This document shows, piece by piece, positions 30,776-39,089 of a stretch of DNA of 39,111 nucleotides (position 1 is its first letter; every line of letters begins with the position of its first letter). The stretch lies in IMG/VR virus record IMGVR_UViG_3300037847_003074, positions 1-39,111 of that record. One strand, written 5' to 3'. Source of the DNA: a virus. The notes beneath the pieces are model-generated. The model worked only from the letters and a program-made list of their open reading frames with translations, was not told where the DNA came from and ran no database searches. A program made the translations under genes and the position numbers.

Positions 30776-32248
30776 TTACCCCCCATAATGTTTATTGAAA
30801 GAACCTGTACCCCAATCGTCTTCATGCTCATGAGCCTCAACGACCATCTCGGCAATATCTCGTAATGACATATCATTTTTGTAAAATGTAAATAGCACTC
30901 TGTCAACCTTATCTCTGGGTTTTTCGTCATCTTCAAAACCAGCTTCTACTTCAAACTCCTCCATTCTGGTGTTTATCTGATGTTGTGCTTTACTAATAGC
31001 AGATTGATTGATTTGAGCAGGAGTCCTCCTTTCATCTTTAGGCTCATCTTTGTCAAACAATTCTTTGACAGTGTACGGAGAAGAACCCCTGTAATAATCA
31101 GAGTCCTCGCCCCATAAACTCCAGGCTCTGTTTCTGTAGCCACCAGAGTATCTGCCAAATGTTTCGATAGCACTTGGGTCACGCTTAACAGGTAACGATA
31201 CCCACTTGACATTGAGTAAAGCAGGAATGAGATGACGTTCTAACCATTCGTGGTCAAAGTGTTCTGACTCCGTATGTTGTCTTTTGTAACCAACAGATAC
31301 ATTTGTACATTCTGGAATGAGCCTAGTGTAGTTGGCAGAGTCAGTAAATGTACCACCAGAAGATTTAGACATTTGTTTTCTAGGTGGTAACTTCACATTC
31401 ATCTGCTCAGCTAATGCATCAGCAAACTCGTCTGAACAACAACGACCACCAGATTGATTAGTGATAATATCTTCATAGTCCATTCTGTCGAAAGCAACAC
31501 AATAGTCTATGTTCTTGACAACATCTGGTGTTTCTTTAGCTATGTAGCTTGAACCAATGCCACCACACTCTTCACCTACATGAAACACATACAGACCTGG
31601 CACTTTAGCCTGCAATAGTCTGCACATAATGTAACAACCAAGTTTGTCATCTGCACCAAGAACATTAGGCAAAGTTTCAAAACCATTGTCAACTTGGTAG
31701 TCCATGCCATCACATAGTGTCCAAGCCTGCTGAAACATATCGTCTGTACCATAGACAGATGCAATACGTCTACGAGTGTTACGTGGCATGATTGTGTAAT
31801 ACTCATAGTCAAAGCCATTATCTCTAGCGAGGCGTTTAATTTCATCTTCTGTATGAACTTCATTTGTCTTTACAGATTTGAATTGATACACCTCTTTGTC
31901 AATGCCTGCATAGACATAGCCATCTTCAGTGGTAAACAAAGTATTATTATCGCCATGACGTTGACCAGATACAACGTCCATGTGACAACTGAACATGGTT
32001 CGTGCATCTTTATCATTTCTGATAATGAGATTACCTTTCTCATCTTTCTTAACCTCACAACCAATCTTGTTTGTAGCCAAGAACTTTTGTATGATAACAC
32101 TAATCTTATCTTCGTGACCATGAGGTGAACGAGTGACAAGTAAATCATACAATAGAGCATTCATATCTTTGGCTCGTTTGATGACAGTAAGCTCGTCAAA
32201 ACTTGGTCTGGATTTATACAAGAGCTGATTATTGTAATATGTATTCAT
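30776..32248 (-). CDS. M20/M42-like zinc aminopeptidase
   Basis: A 490-residue protein whose first about 345 residues look like a co-catalytic zinc peptidase: MFSCHMDVVSG (H89, D91), LGADDKLGCY (D200), HVGEECGGIG (E226, E227), AFDRMD (D254) and YKRQHTESEH (H325) give the expected metal ligands and general base. The last about 140 residues add an acidic, low-complexity linker and a helical tail not typical of the family. Such peptidases trim peptides; in a phage it could recycle host peptides, mature a phage protein or disarm a host factor. SD AAGGAGG is 7 bases upstream, and the ATG overlaps the previous stop (TAATG). Rare in phages. Confidence 0.75.
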   Translation of the reverse strand: MNTYYNNQLLYKSRPSFDELTVIKRAKDMNALLYDLLVTRSPHGHEDKISVIIQKFLATNKIGCEVKKDEKGNLIIRNDKDARTMFSCHMDVVSGQRHGDNNTLFTTEDGYVYAGIDKEVYQFKSVKTNEVHTEDEIKRLARDNGFDYEYYTIMPRNTRRRIASVYGTDDMFQQAWTLCDGMDYQVDNGFETLPNVLGADDKLGCYIMCRLLQAKVPGLYVFHVGEECGGIGSSYIAKETPDVVKNIDYCVAFDRMDYEDIITNQSGGRCCSDEFADALAEQMNVKLPPRKQMSKSSGGTFTDSANYTRLIPECTNVSVGYKRQHTESEHFDHEWLERHLIPALLNVKWVSLPVKRDPSAIETFGRYSGGYRNRAWSLWGEDSDYYRGSSPYTVKELFDKDEPKDERRTPAQINQSAISKAQHQINTRMEEFEVEAGFEDDEKPRDKVDRVLFTFYKNDMSLRDIAEMVVEAHEHEDDWGTGSFNKHYGG

Positions 32249-34407
32249 TATATATCCTCCTTAGATATAATTGGGTTTAAGTAATTAGTACAGTTGCAAT
32301 CGTCAAAGTTTGCTACGTGCTTGACCTCTGCAACATGAGAGTCAATCATAGCTTCTACGTTAATCGTAGGATTTGTTAAGCTAAACAAAGCTCGTTTGGT
32401 TAGCAGTGGATAAGGTTTACTGATGTCAACCTGCTCCTGCCACTCATCAATAGGTATCCTGATTGGGTCTATGCTAAAGTTCTTATACCTTTCTTTGTTG
32501 TTACAAGGCAAATGATAACCATGTAAAATATCATAAGTAGACCAATCTATGTTACGATACTGTGATTCATGAGTACCCCACTTAGCTATAGCTATATCGC
32601 TACCTTTCTTACCACTAGGACATACGTAAGACATCAAACACGTTTCATGTTGACGTTTAATTTCTCCATTGTTTGCAACAAAATGTATATCCTCTGATAT
32701 GGCACACGAATACCTACTAAGTAATACACCTTGACTAAAAGCAACGTAGGGAGTGGCATACCCCCACCTATGTGACATCAAAGCAGGTGTAGATTTAGCA
32801 AAAGTGGGTAGTCCACAGTGAAATGTATACTGAGGCACAAAGGCACGTTCGCCTGCAGGTCTGAAGTTACTTAAGAAATCAGGAGATTGGTCGTTACGTG
32901 ATGAGCCATCAACCCAACGTGTTTCTGGTTCATACCTATCTTCTGAAGACATATTAATGGTAGTCCACCAACCAGCATCTGATACACAATCAGAGTTGCA
33001 GAATGGATAGCCACCAGCATCTAAGTAATCGTCAGCAAGCTCATCTCCACAATGAGTGCATTCTGGATAGTCCTCCTCATACTTATCTTCTGAATACCAG
33101 ATACCTCTAGTAGAAGTCATGTTCGCACCAACACACTTTTGTGTGACATCTCTATCTACAGCCTTAATCCCAGCTAGATGCACAGTAACACCATCACGGC
33201 TTGGTTCACACCAAACTCTAGTAAATGGAGTCCAATCAAAGTAAGGCATAGGTATACAATTTTCACCACCTGATAAGTACCAAGGAATGTGAAACTTTAT
33301 AGGATTGTCTAATGTATCTGTAGCGTTCTTGTAAACGACTGCCCCCTCTTTCTTGAGATGGTCAATGAGTTTAAGTTTATGTGCTTGGATAGAGCCATAC
33401 ACTCTAGTGTACACTTTCTTGCCCTCAAACTCATAGACAAACGTACGAGCTAAGACAACACTACCTCTGCATATGTAATACCCAGTAACAATAGGACAAT
33501 AGTAATACCAATCAATGGGTCTACCATTTACAGCATTCGTGTCTGTTCCATCTGCTTTATATCTCTTCAACTCATTAAAGTGATGAGAGCTGTCCATACA
33601 AGAACCAGGACTTTCGCCATCAGTATATGTATACATAGCTTCATAGTCAGCAAGGCTAGAGCATTTTACGATAGTAGGAGGCTCGCCATAGGCTCGCATA
33701 GTGTCAGCAATAATCTCGATTATCCATGAGCCTCTGTCCAAGTCAGCAATGAATTGTCCATTCCATTTGATAAATCTAGATATTGCTCGCTCAATAGCAA
33801 ACTCTCGCCTATCTGCAAGTCTACGTATGCCTCGACTTAAAGGTGTCCAAGCCTTCTGTTTATGTTCGTCATCTAAATCAGAATAAATATCCTTAATAAT
33901 TGAATTAGAAAAACGAGGCAGTAGAGCATCTTCTTCTTTTAAACTTTGAAGAATCTCCTTTCTATTGTAATCATTGGCACGACTTATATTATTCAGAAAT
34001 CCATTCCTGACTTGGGACATCATTTGAATAATTGGACACGGTAACTTTCTAAAGCACACAACTCGTCTTTTGTCTTTTGACCACACCATAGGAAAAGGAA
34101 TATGCAAATTATCTTCTATTCTGTAGCTGAAGTTTTGTAGAGAACTGCCTGCATCAGCTTTACTAGCTAGATACTCTCTTGCTTCTGTAGGTAATCCCTT
34201 CAACGCACGAGTTAGGTCAGTAATAAAATCAACCATAGGCTCTGCAAGTATACGAAACTTGCGAGCTGCAGATTGACAAACTGGGTGTGCATCTGGTCGT
34301 ACCTCCTCAAAGTGAGAAGCATCTAAGTCATATTCCATGCAAAAGTCAAAGACATTCTTGTTGTGTTCAAGAATTACATCTTTAATCATAGGATTAGTTT
34401 TTGACAT
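32248..34407 (-). CDS. Large protein with zinc ribbon and SCM/LAR motifs, unknown
   Basis: A 719-residue protein of unknown function. Residues 450-474 form a zinc ribbon (CTHC...CNSDC: C450, C453, C470, C474). The centre has SPGSCMDSS (269-271 = SCM), RGSVVLARTFVYEF (R314, LAR at 319-321) and KVYTRVYG (334-338), a motif set I associate with large uncharacterised phage proteins but cannot tie to an activity. No signal peptide or membrane span is seen. It is coupled to the peptidase gene by a TAATG overlap, so the two may act together. Confidence 0.65.
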   Translation of the reverse strand: MSKTNPMIKDVILEHNKNVFDFCMEYDLDASHFEEVRPDAHPVCQSAARKFRILAEPMVDFITDLTRALKGLPTEAREYLASKADAGSSLQNFSYRIEDNLHIPFPMVWSKDKRRVVCFRKLPCPIIQMMSQVRNGFLNNISRANDYNRKEILQSLKEEDALLPRFSNSIIKDIYSDLDDEHKQKAWTPLSRGIRRLADRREFAIERAISRFIKWNGQFIADLDRGSWIIEIIADTMRAYGEPPTIVKCSSLADYEAMYTYTDGESPGSCMDSSHHFNELKRYKADGTDTNAVNGRPIDWYYYCPIVTGYYICRGSVVLARTFVYEFEGKKVYTRVYGSIQAHKLKLIDHLKKEGAVVYKNATDTLDNPIKFHIPWYLSGGENCIPMPYFDWTPFTRVWCEPSRDGVTVHLAGIKAVDRDVTQKCVGANMTSTRGIWYSEDKYEEDYPECTHCGDELADDYLDAGGYPFCNSDCVSDAGWWTTINMSSEDRYEPETRWVDGSSRNDQSPDFLSNFRPAGERAFVPQYTFHCGLPTFAKSTPALMSHRWGYATPYVAFSQGVLLSRYSCAISEDIHFVANNGEIKRQHETCLMSYVCPSGKKGSDIAIAKWGTHESQYRNIDWSTYDILHGYHLPCNNKERYKNFSIDPIRIPIDEWQEQVDISKPYPLLTKRALFSLTNPTINVEAMIDSHVAEVKHVANFDDCNCTNYLNPIISKEDI

Positions 34408-35707: not shown

Positions 35708-36034
35708 CTAGAAGCTACGATTTAATACTTGTATAGTCAAATACTCCTTTCCTTGTTCTGATAATTCATATACATTACTACAGACAGATTTACCATCTGA
35801 TATTCTGTGTCCTTCTGGTAGTTTGCTGACCGTAATCAGACCTTGTTCATTTAGATTTTGTATTGTTGAACCTATCTTGATAGCGTCAAATATAGATTGT
35901 GTAGAAGTCCTTTGTATCGTACTCCTTAAATCTTTGAACGTAGGTCGTTTATATCTGGTCTGAGCCAGAGATATCAGCAATAGACACTCCAACTGCTTTT
36001 TACTCAATACATGATTTATTTTATTTAGTTTCAT
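35708..36034 (-). CDS. Winged-helix DNA-binding regulator
   Basis: A 108-residue protein from the ATG at 36034 (SD GAGGT, 6 bases upstream). A helix (LSKKQLECLLLISLAQ), a likely HTH (TFKDLRSTIQRTSTQSIFDAIKIGSTIQNLNEQGL) and a wing (ITVSKLPEGHRISDG...VYELSEQGKEYL) match the order of MarR/PadR-like winged-helix proteins. It probably represses or activates a phage or host promoter. The gene sits directly behind an intrinsic terminator (36057-36108) without room for its own promoter, so its level depends on read-through. It is a candidate ligand for the repeated sites at the right end, as speculation. Confidence 0.65.
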   Translation of the reverse strand: MKLNKINHVLSKKQLECLLLISLAQTRYKRPTFKDLRSTIQRTSTQSIFDAIKIGSTIQNLNEQGLITVSKLPEGHRISDGKSVCSNVYELSEQGKEYLTIQVLNRSF

Positions 36035-36990: not shown

Positions 36991-37019
36991 AATGTAGCAC
37001 AACTAGTTATGTATGTCAA
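36991..37019 (-). promoter_or_regulatory. Sigma70-like promoter for the small-gene cluster
   Basis: TTGACA at 37019-37014 and TACATT at 36996-36991 on the minus strand with a 17-base spacer. Its -35 box is perfect, its -10 box 4/6. It lies about 100 bases downstream of the TGAYAGT array at 37116-37168. Confidence 0.6.
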
Positions 37020-37115
37020 AGTCACAGAGGCGTTTTATCTTTGAAATCAATGATTTATACCTTTTTTGTAAAAAAATGTGAATGGCTATATACCTGCCTA
37101 TTGTACCTCCAGCCG

Positions 37116-37168
37116 TGACAGTACCATTAACATGTAATGATAGTTTGCGAAGCAAGCCTTATGATAGT
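37116..37168 (+). repeat. Three-site array A (TGAYAGT, pitch 22 + 24)
   Basis: TGACAGTA at 37116, TGATAGT at 37138 and TGATAGT at 37162, all plus orientation, start-to-start 22 and 24 bases. Between sites 2 and 3 is a small hairpin TTGC-GAA-GCAA. The array lies in the 222-base gap between the terminator of the 379-residue gene and the small-gene promoter. Confidence 0.75.
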
Positions 37169-37191
37169 TTTTTTTGAAAAAATTTTGGCAT

Positions 37192-37225
37192 AAAAAAAAG
37201 CCCCCCAGAATTTAATCTGGAGGGC
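37192..37225 (-). terminator. Rho-independent terminator of the 379-residue gene
   Basis: Minus-strand stem GCCCTCCAGA/TCTGGGGGGC (10 pairs, one G-U), loop TTAAAT, followed by eight T residues. It starts 17 bases after the stop codon at 37243. Confidence 0.9.
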
Positions 37226-37242
37226 TAATTGAAAAAATTAAA

Positions 37243-38382
37243 TTATTTTTTTCTAATATTTGCTATTTGTTGAAATGGATTTGAGTTTTCCAAACTGCTT
37301 ATTTCTTCAGCAATTTCCTTAACTTCCTTTTTTTCCTCAACTGCTAATTTCATATTTTTATCATCAGTTTTTGGAGTTTCCTTTTTCTCAACTTCAGTTT
37401 TTTCAACTTCAGTTTTTGAAGCTTCGTCAAGTTCATCAGTAGCTTGGTCAACTGGTGTTCCTTCGTCAATTTTAGTTTGATGAAGTAACGCATCAGCATC
37501 AAATTTCAACCTGGCTTTTTCCATTTGGATTTTAATATGGTCTAAAACTTCAAATAGACTAGTAGTCATTAATTTCTTTTCTTTTAATGTTGCTGTGTCG
37601 TCTATTGCATCTCTACCCAACTTACCATTTGGAAGATGAATATTTGCTTTCATATATGAAACCAAAGCTGTGGCACATTTTAAAGCTTCGCTATAACTTG
37701 AGACACTATCCAGATTTAAAGAATTGTCCGCTCCTTTCTTATTTACTTTAAAGCCTGTTGGGGTGTCCTTATCGTTTAATTCTTTCATATTATAAATAAC
37801 TTCATATATCTGGGATACATGGGTTTCAGTTGCATATTTAAGAGAATCACTAAATCTTTCAAAGCTTCCGTCTTTGTCTTTGTAGTGGCTGAACGGTAAG
37901 CTATTTGGTCGGAACAATGCTCTTATATGGTGCTTATTACTTGGTTTAAAATCCGCGTCTGTTTGCCCCAAAAAATAAGCTCTGCTTTGGGTCGTATGAT
38001 AACCGATTGTTAAGTGTCCTGACATTACAAGCCTGATACCTTTGACGGTAAATCCTTTAACTCTGTTTAAGGTTTTCTTTATATCTGCATCAACTGTACC
38101 GTCTGCGTCTGTCCACAAGGTTTCAAATTGTGTTTGCACAATTCCTTCTAGTTCTGCCTGACTAGGTACGTTCTCCAGATAATCATTATCATTTTTAAAA
38201 CCTGCTTGAATTAAAGTAATTCCTGCAATTACTGAGCTATGTAATTGGGTTTCTCTTGTTCTGTCGGTTTTTACCAATGCTTTACCTATACTAAGAAGTT
38301 CGGCTCTGGCATCTTCAACTGACATATCAACTTGCTTGTTTATATTGTCTACAACTTTAAATGTTACGTTTTCTTTAGTCAT
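37243..38382 (-). CDS. 379-residue protein of unknown function at the right end
   Basis: A 379-residue, largely helical, charged protein from the ATG at 38382 (SD AAAGGA, 7 bases upstream); the frame continues to 38466 without support. Residues about 120-185 contain GIRLVMSGHLTIGYHTTQSR and HHIRALFRPNSLPFSHYKDK. The last about 90 residues are Lys/Glu-rich with short duplications (TEVEKTEVEKKET). No domain is recognised. It is the only gene between its own terminator and the array-rich non-coding right end, a single-gene unit. By position it could be an early take-over protein or the factor that binds the adjacent repeats; this is inference only. Confidence 0.6.
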   Translation of the reverse strand: MTKENVTFKVVDNINKQVDMSVEDARAELLSIGKALVKTDRTRETQLHSSVIAGITLIQAGFKNDNDYLENVPSQAELEGIVQTQFETLWTDADGTVDADIKKTLNRVKGFTVKGIRLVMSGHLTIGYHTTQSRAYFLGQTDADFKPSNKHHIRALFRPNSLPFSHYKDKDGSFERFSDSLKYATETHVSQIYEVIYNMKELNDKDTPTGFKVNKKGADNSLNLDSVSSYSEALKCATALVSYMKANIHLPNGKLGRDAIDDTATLKEKKLMTTSLFEVLDHIKIQMEKARLKFDADALLHQTKIDEGTPVDQATDELDEASKTEVEKTEVEKKETPKTDDKNMKLAVEEKKEVKEIAEEISSLENSNPFQQIANIRKK

Positions 38383-38513
38383 TTGTGTTTCCTTTCTATT
38401 TAAACACGATTTACACGGCCTTATGACCGATAAGACTAGTATTACATAGGTAAAAAGATATAGCAACTCTATGAGCCTTAAAACGGCTTTAAAAGGCTAT
38501 TTCCTAGCTAAAA

Positions 38514-38566
38514 TGACAGTAACAAGCCAAACTGCTGATAGTAAAAAAAAATTTTTTTTTGATAGT
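38514..38566 (+). repeat. Three-site array B (TGAYAGT, pitch 22 + 24)
   Basis: TGACAGTA at 38514, TGATAGT at 38536 and TGATAGT at 38560, plus orientation, spacing 22 and 24. Sites 2 and 3 are separated by an A-tract running directly into a T-tract. Array B is the left arm of a roughly 60-base inverted repeat with array C. Confidence 0.8.
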
Positions 38567-38772
38567 ATTTAAGGTTTTTTGCTGGATAAAAACTTATTAA
38601 ATAATTTAAAAAATGGTTTAGCTGCTAGCTGGATAATCTGTTTTTATACAAAAACTAGACCAAACCTTTCACGCGCTCCAGCTGCAACCGATTTTTTTTG
38701 AACCAGAATTAAACCAAATATATACTTTTTTGCCTGATACAACTTCAACTTCTGAACCAGAACTATACCAAT

Positions 38773-38825
38773 ACTATCAAAAAAAAATTTTCTTTTACTA
38801 TCATACTATTGCTTTGCTACTGTCA
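38773..38825 (-). repeat. Three-site array C (TGAYAGT, pitch 22 + 24), inverted
   Basis: On the minus strand TGACAGTA starts at 38825, TGATAGT at 38803 and TGATAGT at 38779: spacing 22 and 24 again. The A/T tract between sites 2 and 3 is kept with one interruption on each half. It faces array B across about 206 bases. Confidence 0.8.
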
Positions 38826-38848: not shown

Positions 38849-39089
38849 GATAAGTTATTGATTTTATTACACTTGTTTATTTATTAGGCGTTATCGTACA
38901 CGAACGCATAGTACCTGCCTATATTTTAGGCAATACGTAAACTTTCAAGATGGTTTAACGCACGACCAAAAAAAGTTGAACGCTAAATTATTATTTTAGT
39001 TTAACGCTAAACTATGTGTGACAAAATACACACACAATTTGAAATGCCAGGAGTAAAACACTAGCTTGATAACCTATTGATTTTATTAC
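38849..39089 (+). repeat. 22-base direct repeat flanking array D
   Basis: GATAAGT then TATTGATTTTATTAC (38849-38870) recurs as GATAACC plus the same 15 bases (39068-39089), with only the two bases after GATAA differing. The copies are 219 bases apart and bracket the TTKAACGC array. Confidence 0.65.
38954..39008 (+). repeat. Three-site array D (TTKAACGC, pitch 22 + 24)
   Basis: TTTAACGCA at 38954, TTGAACGCT at 38976 and TTTAACGCT at 39000, spacing 22 and 24. The word differs from arrays A-C but the geometry is identical. Another AACGC (38903) and its reverse GCGTT (38888) lie upstream. Confidence 0.75.

Follow-up and report, generated by a model that had tools for sequence, protein, structure and literature searches.

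Three intergenic arrays of a short repeated site, built from the same words at the same spacing, lie near the right end of a 39,111-bp linear virus record (the window), and clusters of the same word recur at the corresponding place in four related genomes. From their sequence, arrangement and conservation, the arrays appear to be iteron-like clusters for an early phage DNA-binding protein, with a putative role at an origin of replication, in early promoter control, or in both. Our tentative preference is for an initiator-and-iteron module over an operator acting in transcription only.

The window comes from an uncultured marine phage of the HMO-2011 type and is a linear fragment of its genome. 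The DNA polymerase it encodes is closest to that of Pelagibacter phage HTVC033P (47%), followed by those of the Roseobacter CRP phages and HMO-2011. Structural genes occupy the plus strand and replication genes the minus strand, converging near 19.6 kb, and the circular record of HMO-2011 shows the same convergent plan. Relatives extend leftward past window position 1 with further genes; part of the genome is missing from the window, and the early operon is complete. HMO-2011-type phages have been described as ocean-dominant, and the paper on their genomes is silent on intergenic elements, promoters, and origins (PMC9038755). A literature search turned up no published report of an origin, an operator, or a promoter in HMO-2011-type phages.

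The three arrays in the window are as follows.

37116..37168, + strand: array A1, with TGACAGTA, TGATAGT, and TGATAGT at 37116, 37138, and 37162.
38514..38566, + strand: array A2, with sites at 38514, 38536, and 38560 and A9T9 separating sites 2 and 3.
38773..38825, − strand: array A3, with sites at 38825, 38803, and 38779, an inverted duplicate of A2.

All nine words described in a preliminary reading of this DNA are present: each array opens with TGACAGTA and continues with two copies of TGATAGT, at a pitch of exactly 22 and 24 bp. On the opposite strand, each reads ACTATCA-N17-ACTATCA-N15-TACTGTCA. The full pattern occurs three times in the window even with three mismatches permitted, and none of 100 dinucleotide shuffles contained it. 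The bare word TGAYAGT is not over-represented (12 observed versus 15.3 expected), and the arrangement is therefore the signal. A2 and A3 form a 60-nt inverted repeat, 85% complementary with fillers included; as products of one duplication they are not independent evidence for the spacing, and only two arrays are clearly independent. The filler of A1 is unrelated to that of the other two. All arrays are intergenic, as had been claimed, with A1 overlapping only a mechanically called 50-aa open reading frame with a TTG start (37003–37155). Local A+T content is 0.77–0.83 at A2 and A3 versus 0.55–0.75 across most of the surrounding 2 kb.

Around the arrays, the following early features were annotated.

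37243..38382, − strand: first early gene, 379 aa, an orphan family and candidate array binder by co-occurrence with the arrays.
38439..38466, − strand: probable early promoter, TTGCTA-16-TAATAC, proposed from a sequence match.
37199..37226, − strand: intrinsic terminator for the first early gene, immediately preceding A1.
36991..37019, − strand: best promoter-like site of the region, sigma-70-like, TTGACA-17-TACATT, downstream of A1.

In the relatives, TTGCAT-17-TATATT or TTGCAT-17-TATAAT precedes the same first early gene. A2 lies 132 bp upstream of the start of this gene, and A1 follows closely after the gene and its terminator, with 97 bp between it and the sigma-70-like site downstream, a promoter-like site for the next early genes. 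In the ACTATCA direction, A1 and A2 point left, toward the early genes, and A3 points right, toward the late operon as placed by synteny. We infer a divergent early/late control region at the right end of the window, in which A2 faces the first early gene and A3 the late operon.

Clusters of ACTATCA/TGATAGT were found in the same divergent early/late intergenic region of four relatives. In G003 (IMGVR_UViG_3300030450_002408), eight sites at pitches of 23, 22, 26, 28, 12, 24, and 22 bp lie in the stretch that separates its homolog of the first early gene from the late genes. G062 (IMGVR_UViG_3300017912_000774), found with a variable-gap pattern, has five sites at 26, 25, 21, and 17 bp, plus one more, and shares synteny with the window (56% for the primase, 42% for an M42-peptidase-like protein). 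The other two, L115 (G038) and L106 (G034), were reached by synteny, through a terminase search and a small conserved late gene, independently of the pattern; in L115, three sites are spaced at 21 and 24 bp, and in L106 four are spaced at 16, 12, and 56 bp. In every one of the five regions the word is enriched relative to shuffled sequence (p = 0.002–0.006), and ACTATCA is the top-ranked heptamer common to all of them. In 30 aligned sites, ACT(A/G)TC is fixed apart from the A/G position and followed mostly by A, usually with a flanking T on both sides. These results bear out the description of an iteron-like spaced array in the main control region. Its expected recurrence in related phages is upheld for the word but not for the spacing: exactly 22 and 24 bp is seen only in the window and one G003 array, with pitches elsewhere of 12–28 bp and two wider gaps. 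This irregularity argues against strict helical phasing and leaves the proposal that the sites share one DNA face weak. Single-strand hairpins are strong in G003 (z = −6.5), but those of the window are weak or lacking (z = −2.1 and −0.5), and they were rejected as a general array feature. Separately, the window encodes a 719-aa early protein (32248–34407) without a Pfam or PHROG match beside an M42-peptidase-like neighbor (30776–32248), and the pair is kept in G062.

The results do not support the array as a trait of the phage group as a whole: it is absent from 11 complete cultured HMO-2011-type genomes and eight other contigs. HTVC033P and HMO-2011 were both scanned and read by eye, with no array seen. 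The survey pattern misses L106, whose sites are present but too close together. The exact pattern TGACAGTA-N14-TGATAGT-N17-TGATAGT had no match in 2.9 million viral contigs, and a scan for known words in the first 84 loci, most of which stop short of the control region, had none. Several other matches were rejected: L092, matched beside G003 by a looser pattern, has its sites inside a 199-aa open reading frame and is attributed to chance; the 20 loci from the variable-gap pattern were mostly unrelated iteron, integrase, or low-complexity repeats, with G003 and G062 as the only relatives; and the five matches of a genome-contig scan looked mostly low-complexity by sequence. Inverted arrays of ACTATCA sites also lie outside open frames in two other viral contigs (L201:2415–2503 and L202:5226–5314).

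The first early genes of the five array-bearing genomes belong to one family. By profile search, it is present in the four relatives but in none of the 11 complete cultured HMO-2011-type genomes and none of the other contigs tested. Arrays and gene family thus occur together in five genomes, and 19 others lack both (Fisher test, p = 2e-5, a descriptive value that ignores shared ancestry); all five genomes with arrays are uncultured contigs from a single clade, so the co-occurrence may reflect common descent. The 379-aa protein has no trustworthy relative in Pfam, PHROGs, or the PDB and no recognizable DNA-binding domain; its AlphaFold model (pLDDT 39) is too poor for use, and residues 1–170 are basic in four of the five family members. 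Of the two regulators proposed earlier as binders, the product of 37243 emerges as the best candidate by co-occurrence, and it is probably the likeliest partner of the arrays. The product of 35708, whose AlphaFold model is also too poor, is only a weak candidate.

We hypothesize that the 7-bp site ACTATCA (variant ACTGTCA) is bound by a phage-encoded early DNA-binding protein, most likely the product of the first early gene. Occupied sites would mark an origin of replication within the AT-rich control region, or help to open it, and would tie early transcription to replication; A1 may be a second control cluster behind the first early gene. A further repeat family, with a 22–24 bp pitch, adjoins the arrays in G003 and the window and was counted in favor of such a module. 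Counted against it are the absence of Rep_3 (PF01051) matches in the window and G003, the lack of a recognizable DNA-binding domain, and the irregular pitch outside the window. In G062, the minimum of the cumulative GC skew lies about 0.55 kb from the array, which would fit an origin; it also coincides with the change in gene direction and therefore cannot separate replication from transcription. In HMO-2011-type phages without the array, replication must start some other way.

The main rival, a real possibility that we place second to the module, is an operator or enhancer without a part in replication, where a phage regulator would turn transcription on or off at the first early gene, at the second early unit (A1), and perhaps at the late operon. 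Every array in the window lies upstream of a transcription unit, and A1, located beyond the control region, has a terminator on one side and the best promoter-like site on the other. The distances of A2 and the L115 array from the −35 element are similar, the arrays lying 48 and 41–42 bp upstream of it. Across genomes, however, the array is anywhere from about 41 to 234 bp away from the early −35 and its orientation flips, unlike the fixed placement of a classical activator or repressor site. A possible winged-helix gene (35711–36034) in the unit behind A1 could supply the regulator, but its model is weak (pLDDT 47) and it has no Pfam match.

To the right of the arrays lie further elements, conserved or repeated.

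38858..38869, + strand: conserved element TTGATTTTATTA, with a second copy at 39077–39088.
38899..38919, + strand: conserved block CACRAA-N8-TRCCTGCCTA.
38952..39015, + strand: repeat family B, GTTTAACGCTRAACTA-like, with copies at 38952, 38974, and 38998 and a pitch of 22 and 24 bp.

The family B unit, TAGTTTAACGCTGAACTA, is a dyad with a pitch of about 22 bp; G003 has seven copies (22, 22, 22, 22, 24, and 30 bp), and the family is located at L091:1239–1399 and L105:52–150 as well as in the window. G062 and L119 carry TGTCA-N6-TGACA dyads in its place. The element TTGATTTTATTA, or TTGTTTTTATTA, is also found near the control region at L091:937, L198:4322, L119:139, and L097:9262, and a CGACGTCG palindrome is close to it in G003 and G062. 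Between A2 and A3, three 22-nt TTTTGAACCAGAATTAAACCAA-like repeats are spaced at exactly 54 bp (38642, 38696, and 38750). The CACRAA block is present in HMO-2011 at 53530 (− strand), and a palindromic version, TGCACAAGCATTGTGCA, is found in HMO-2011-type members.

The contigs of two relatives, L105 and L119, have the CACRAA block at their very first base (position 1) and L107 and L109 begin 57 bp before it (block at 58), so that the block possibly marks a genome end or an assembly break. The arrays, about 45–120 bp from the block in four genomes, might then be terminase-recognition sites near a physical end at 38899, comparable with lambda cosB. We consider this improbable: the coincidence of contig starts is statistically weak, the contigs of the window, G003, G062, and L106 read through the block, A1 is 1.8 kb away from it, and on the side facing the terminase gene the repeats belong to family B rather than to that of the arrays.

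The remaining readings carry little weight. Sites for a host nucleoid protein or regulator would suit the short core and AT-rich fillers, but the arrays are clade-specific, tied to one phage gene family, and missing from other HMO-2011-type phages, whose hosts may differ; this is very improbable. Even less probable are integrase arm-type sites or a partition site. Both systems use short direct repeats, and one unrelated match (L194) has a tyrosine integrase next to its ACTATCA repeats, but the window has no PF00589 match, with its early operon complete although part of the genome is missing, and no partition gene was recognized among the proteins scanned. A neutral duplicated segment, suggested by the A2/A3 pair, is scarcely credible given that A1 and the four relatives keep the words among different fillers.

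A conserved cluster of sites with a single co-occurring gene is a directly testable candidate protein–DNA pair, and the array is a marker by which the HMO-2011-type group could be split into replication or control types. An unlikely extension of the module reading is that the first early protein founds a new phage initiator class, with no recognizable relationship to Rep, O, or DnaA, and with ACTATCA clusters as its iterons in one clade only. The origin system would then be limited to that clade of HMO-2011-type phages, and the cultured members would use another.

Among known systems, tyrosine-integrase arm sites go with an integrase encoded by the element itself, and no match to one was found in the window. 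The cooperative operators OR and OL of lambda also have three spaced sites repeated beside divergent transcription units, but the array sites are direct repeats rather than palindromes, their distance from the promoter varies, and no repressor or integrase was recognizable in the window. A point shared with lambda replication is that this is a phage with a DnaB-type helicase. The O-protein iterons of lambda at ori-lambda are dyads of about 19 bp inside the initiator gene, whereas the array site is 7 bp, intergenic, and without a dyad, and no O homolog was recognized; the family B repeats of the window do resemble the lambda dyads (PMC5043065).

Iteron origins of plasmids have been reviewed (PMC5043065, PMC10797057), and the Rep-type origins of P1, F, R6K, and RK2 are among the closest comparisons. 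They differ in that no Rep_3 match was found in the window, its first early protein matching no family and possibly having a divergent fold; in that the pitch is irregular among the relatives; and in that origin activity of the array is a prediction. Shared with them are multiple same-direction copies of one putative site in one place, near an early gene that always co-occurs, and AT-rich tracts. Two unrelated records recovered in the pattern searches carry ACTATCA repeats in the neighborhood of Rep_3 initiator genes, at a distance of about 200 bp in G059 and 725 bp in G073. Plasmids P1 and F are laid out as origin iterons, rep, and inc iterons, and the clusters flanking the first early gene on both sides can be likened to this arrangement. 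The arrays are thus a known kind of element, here in a previously undescribed instance with an uncharacterized candidate partner.
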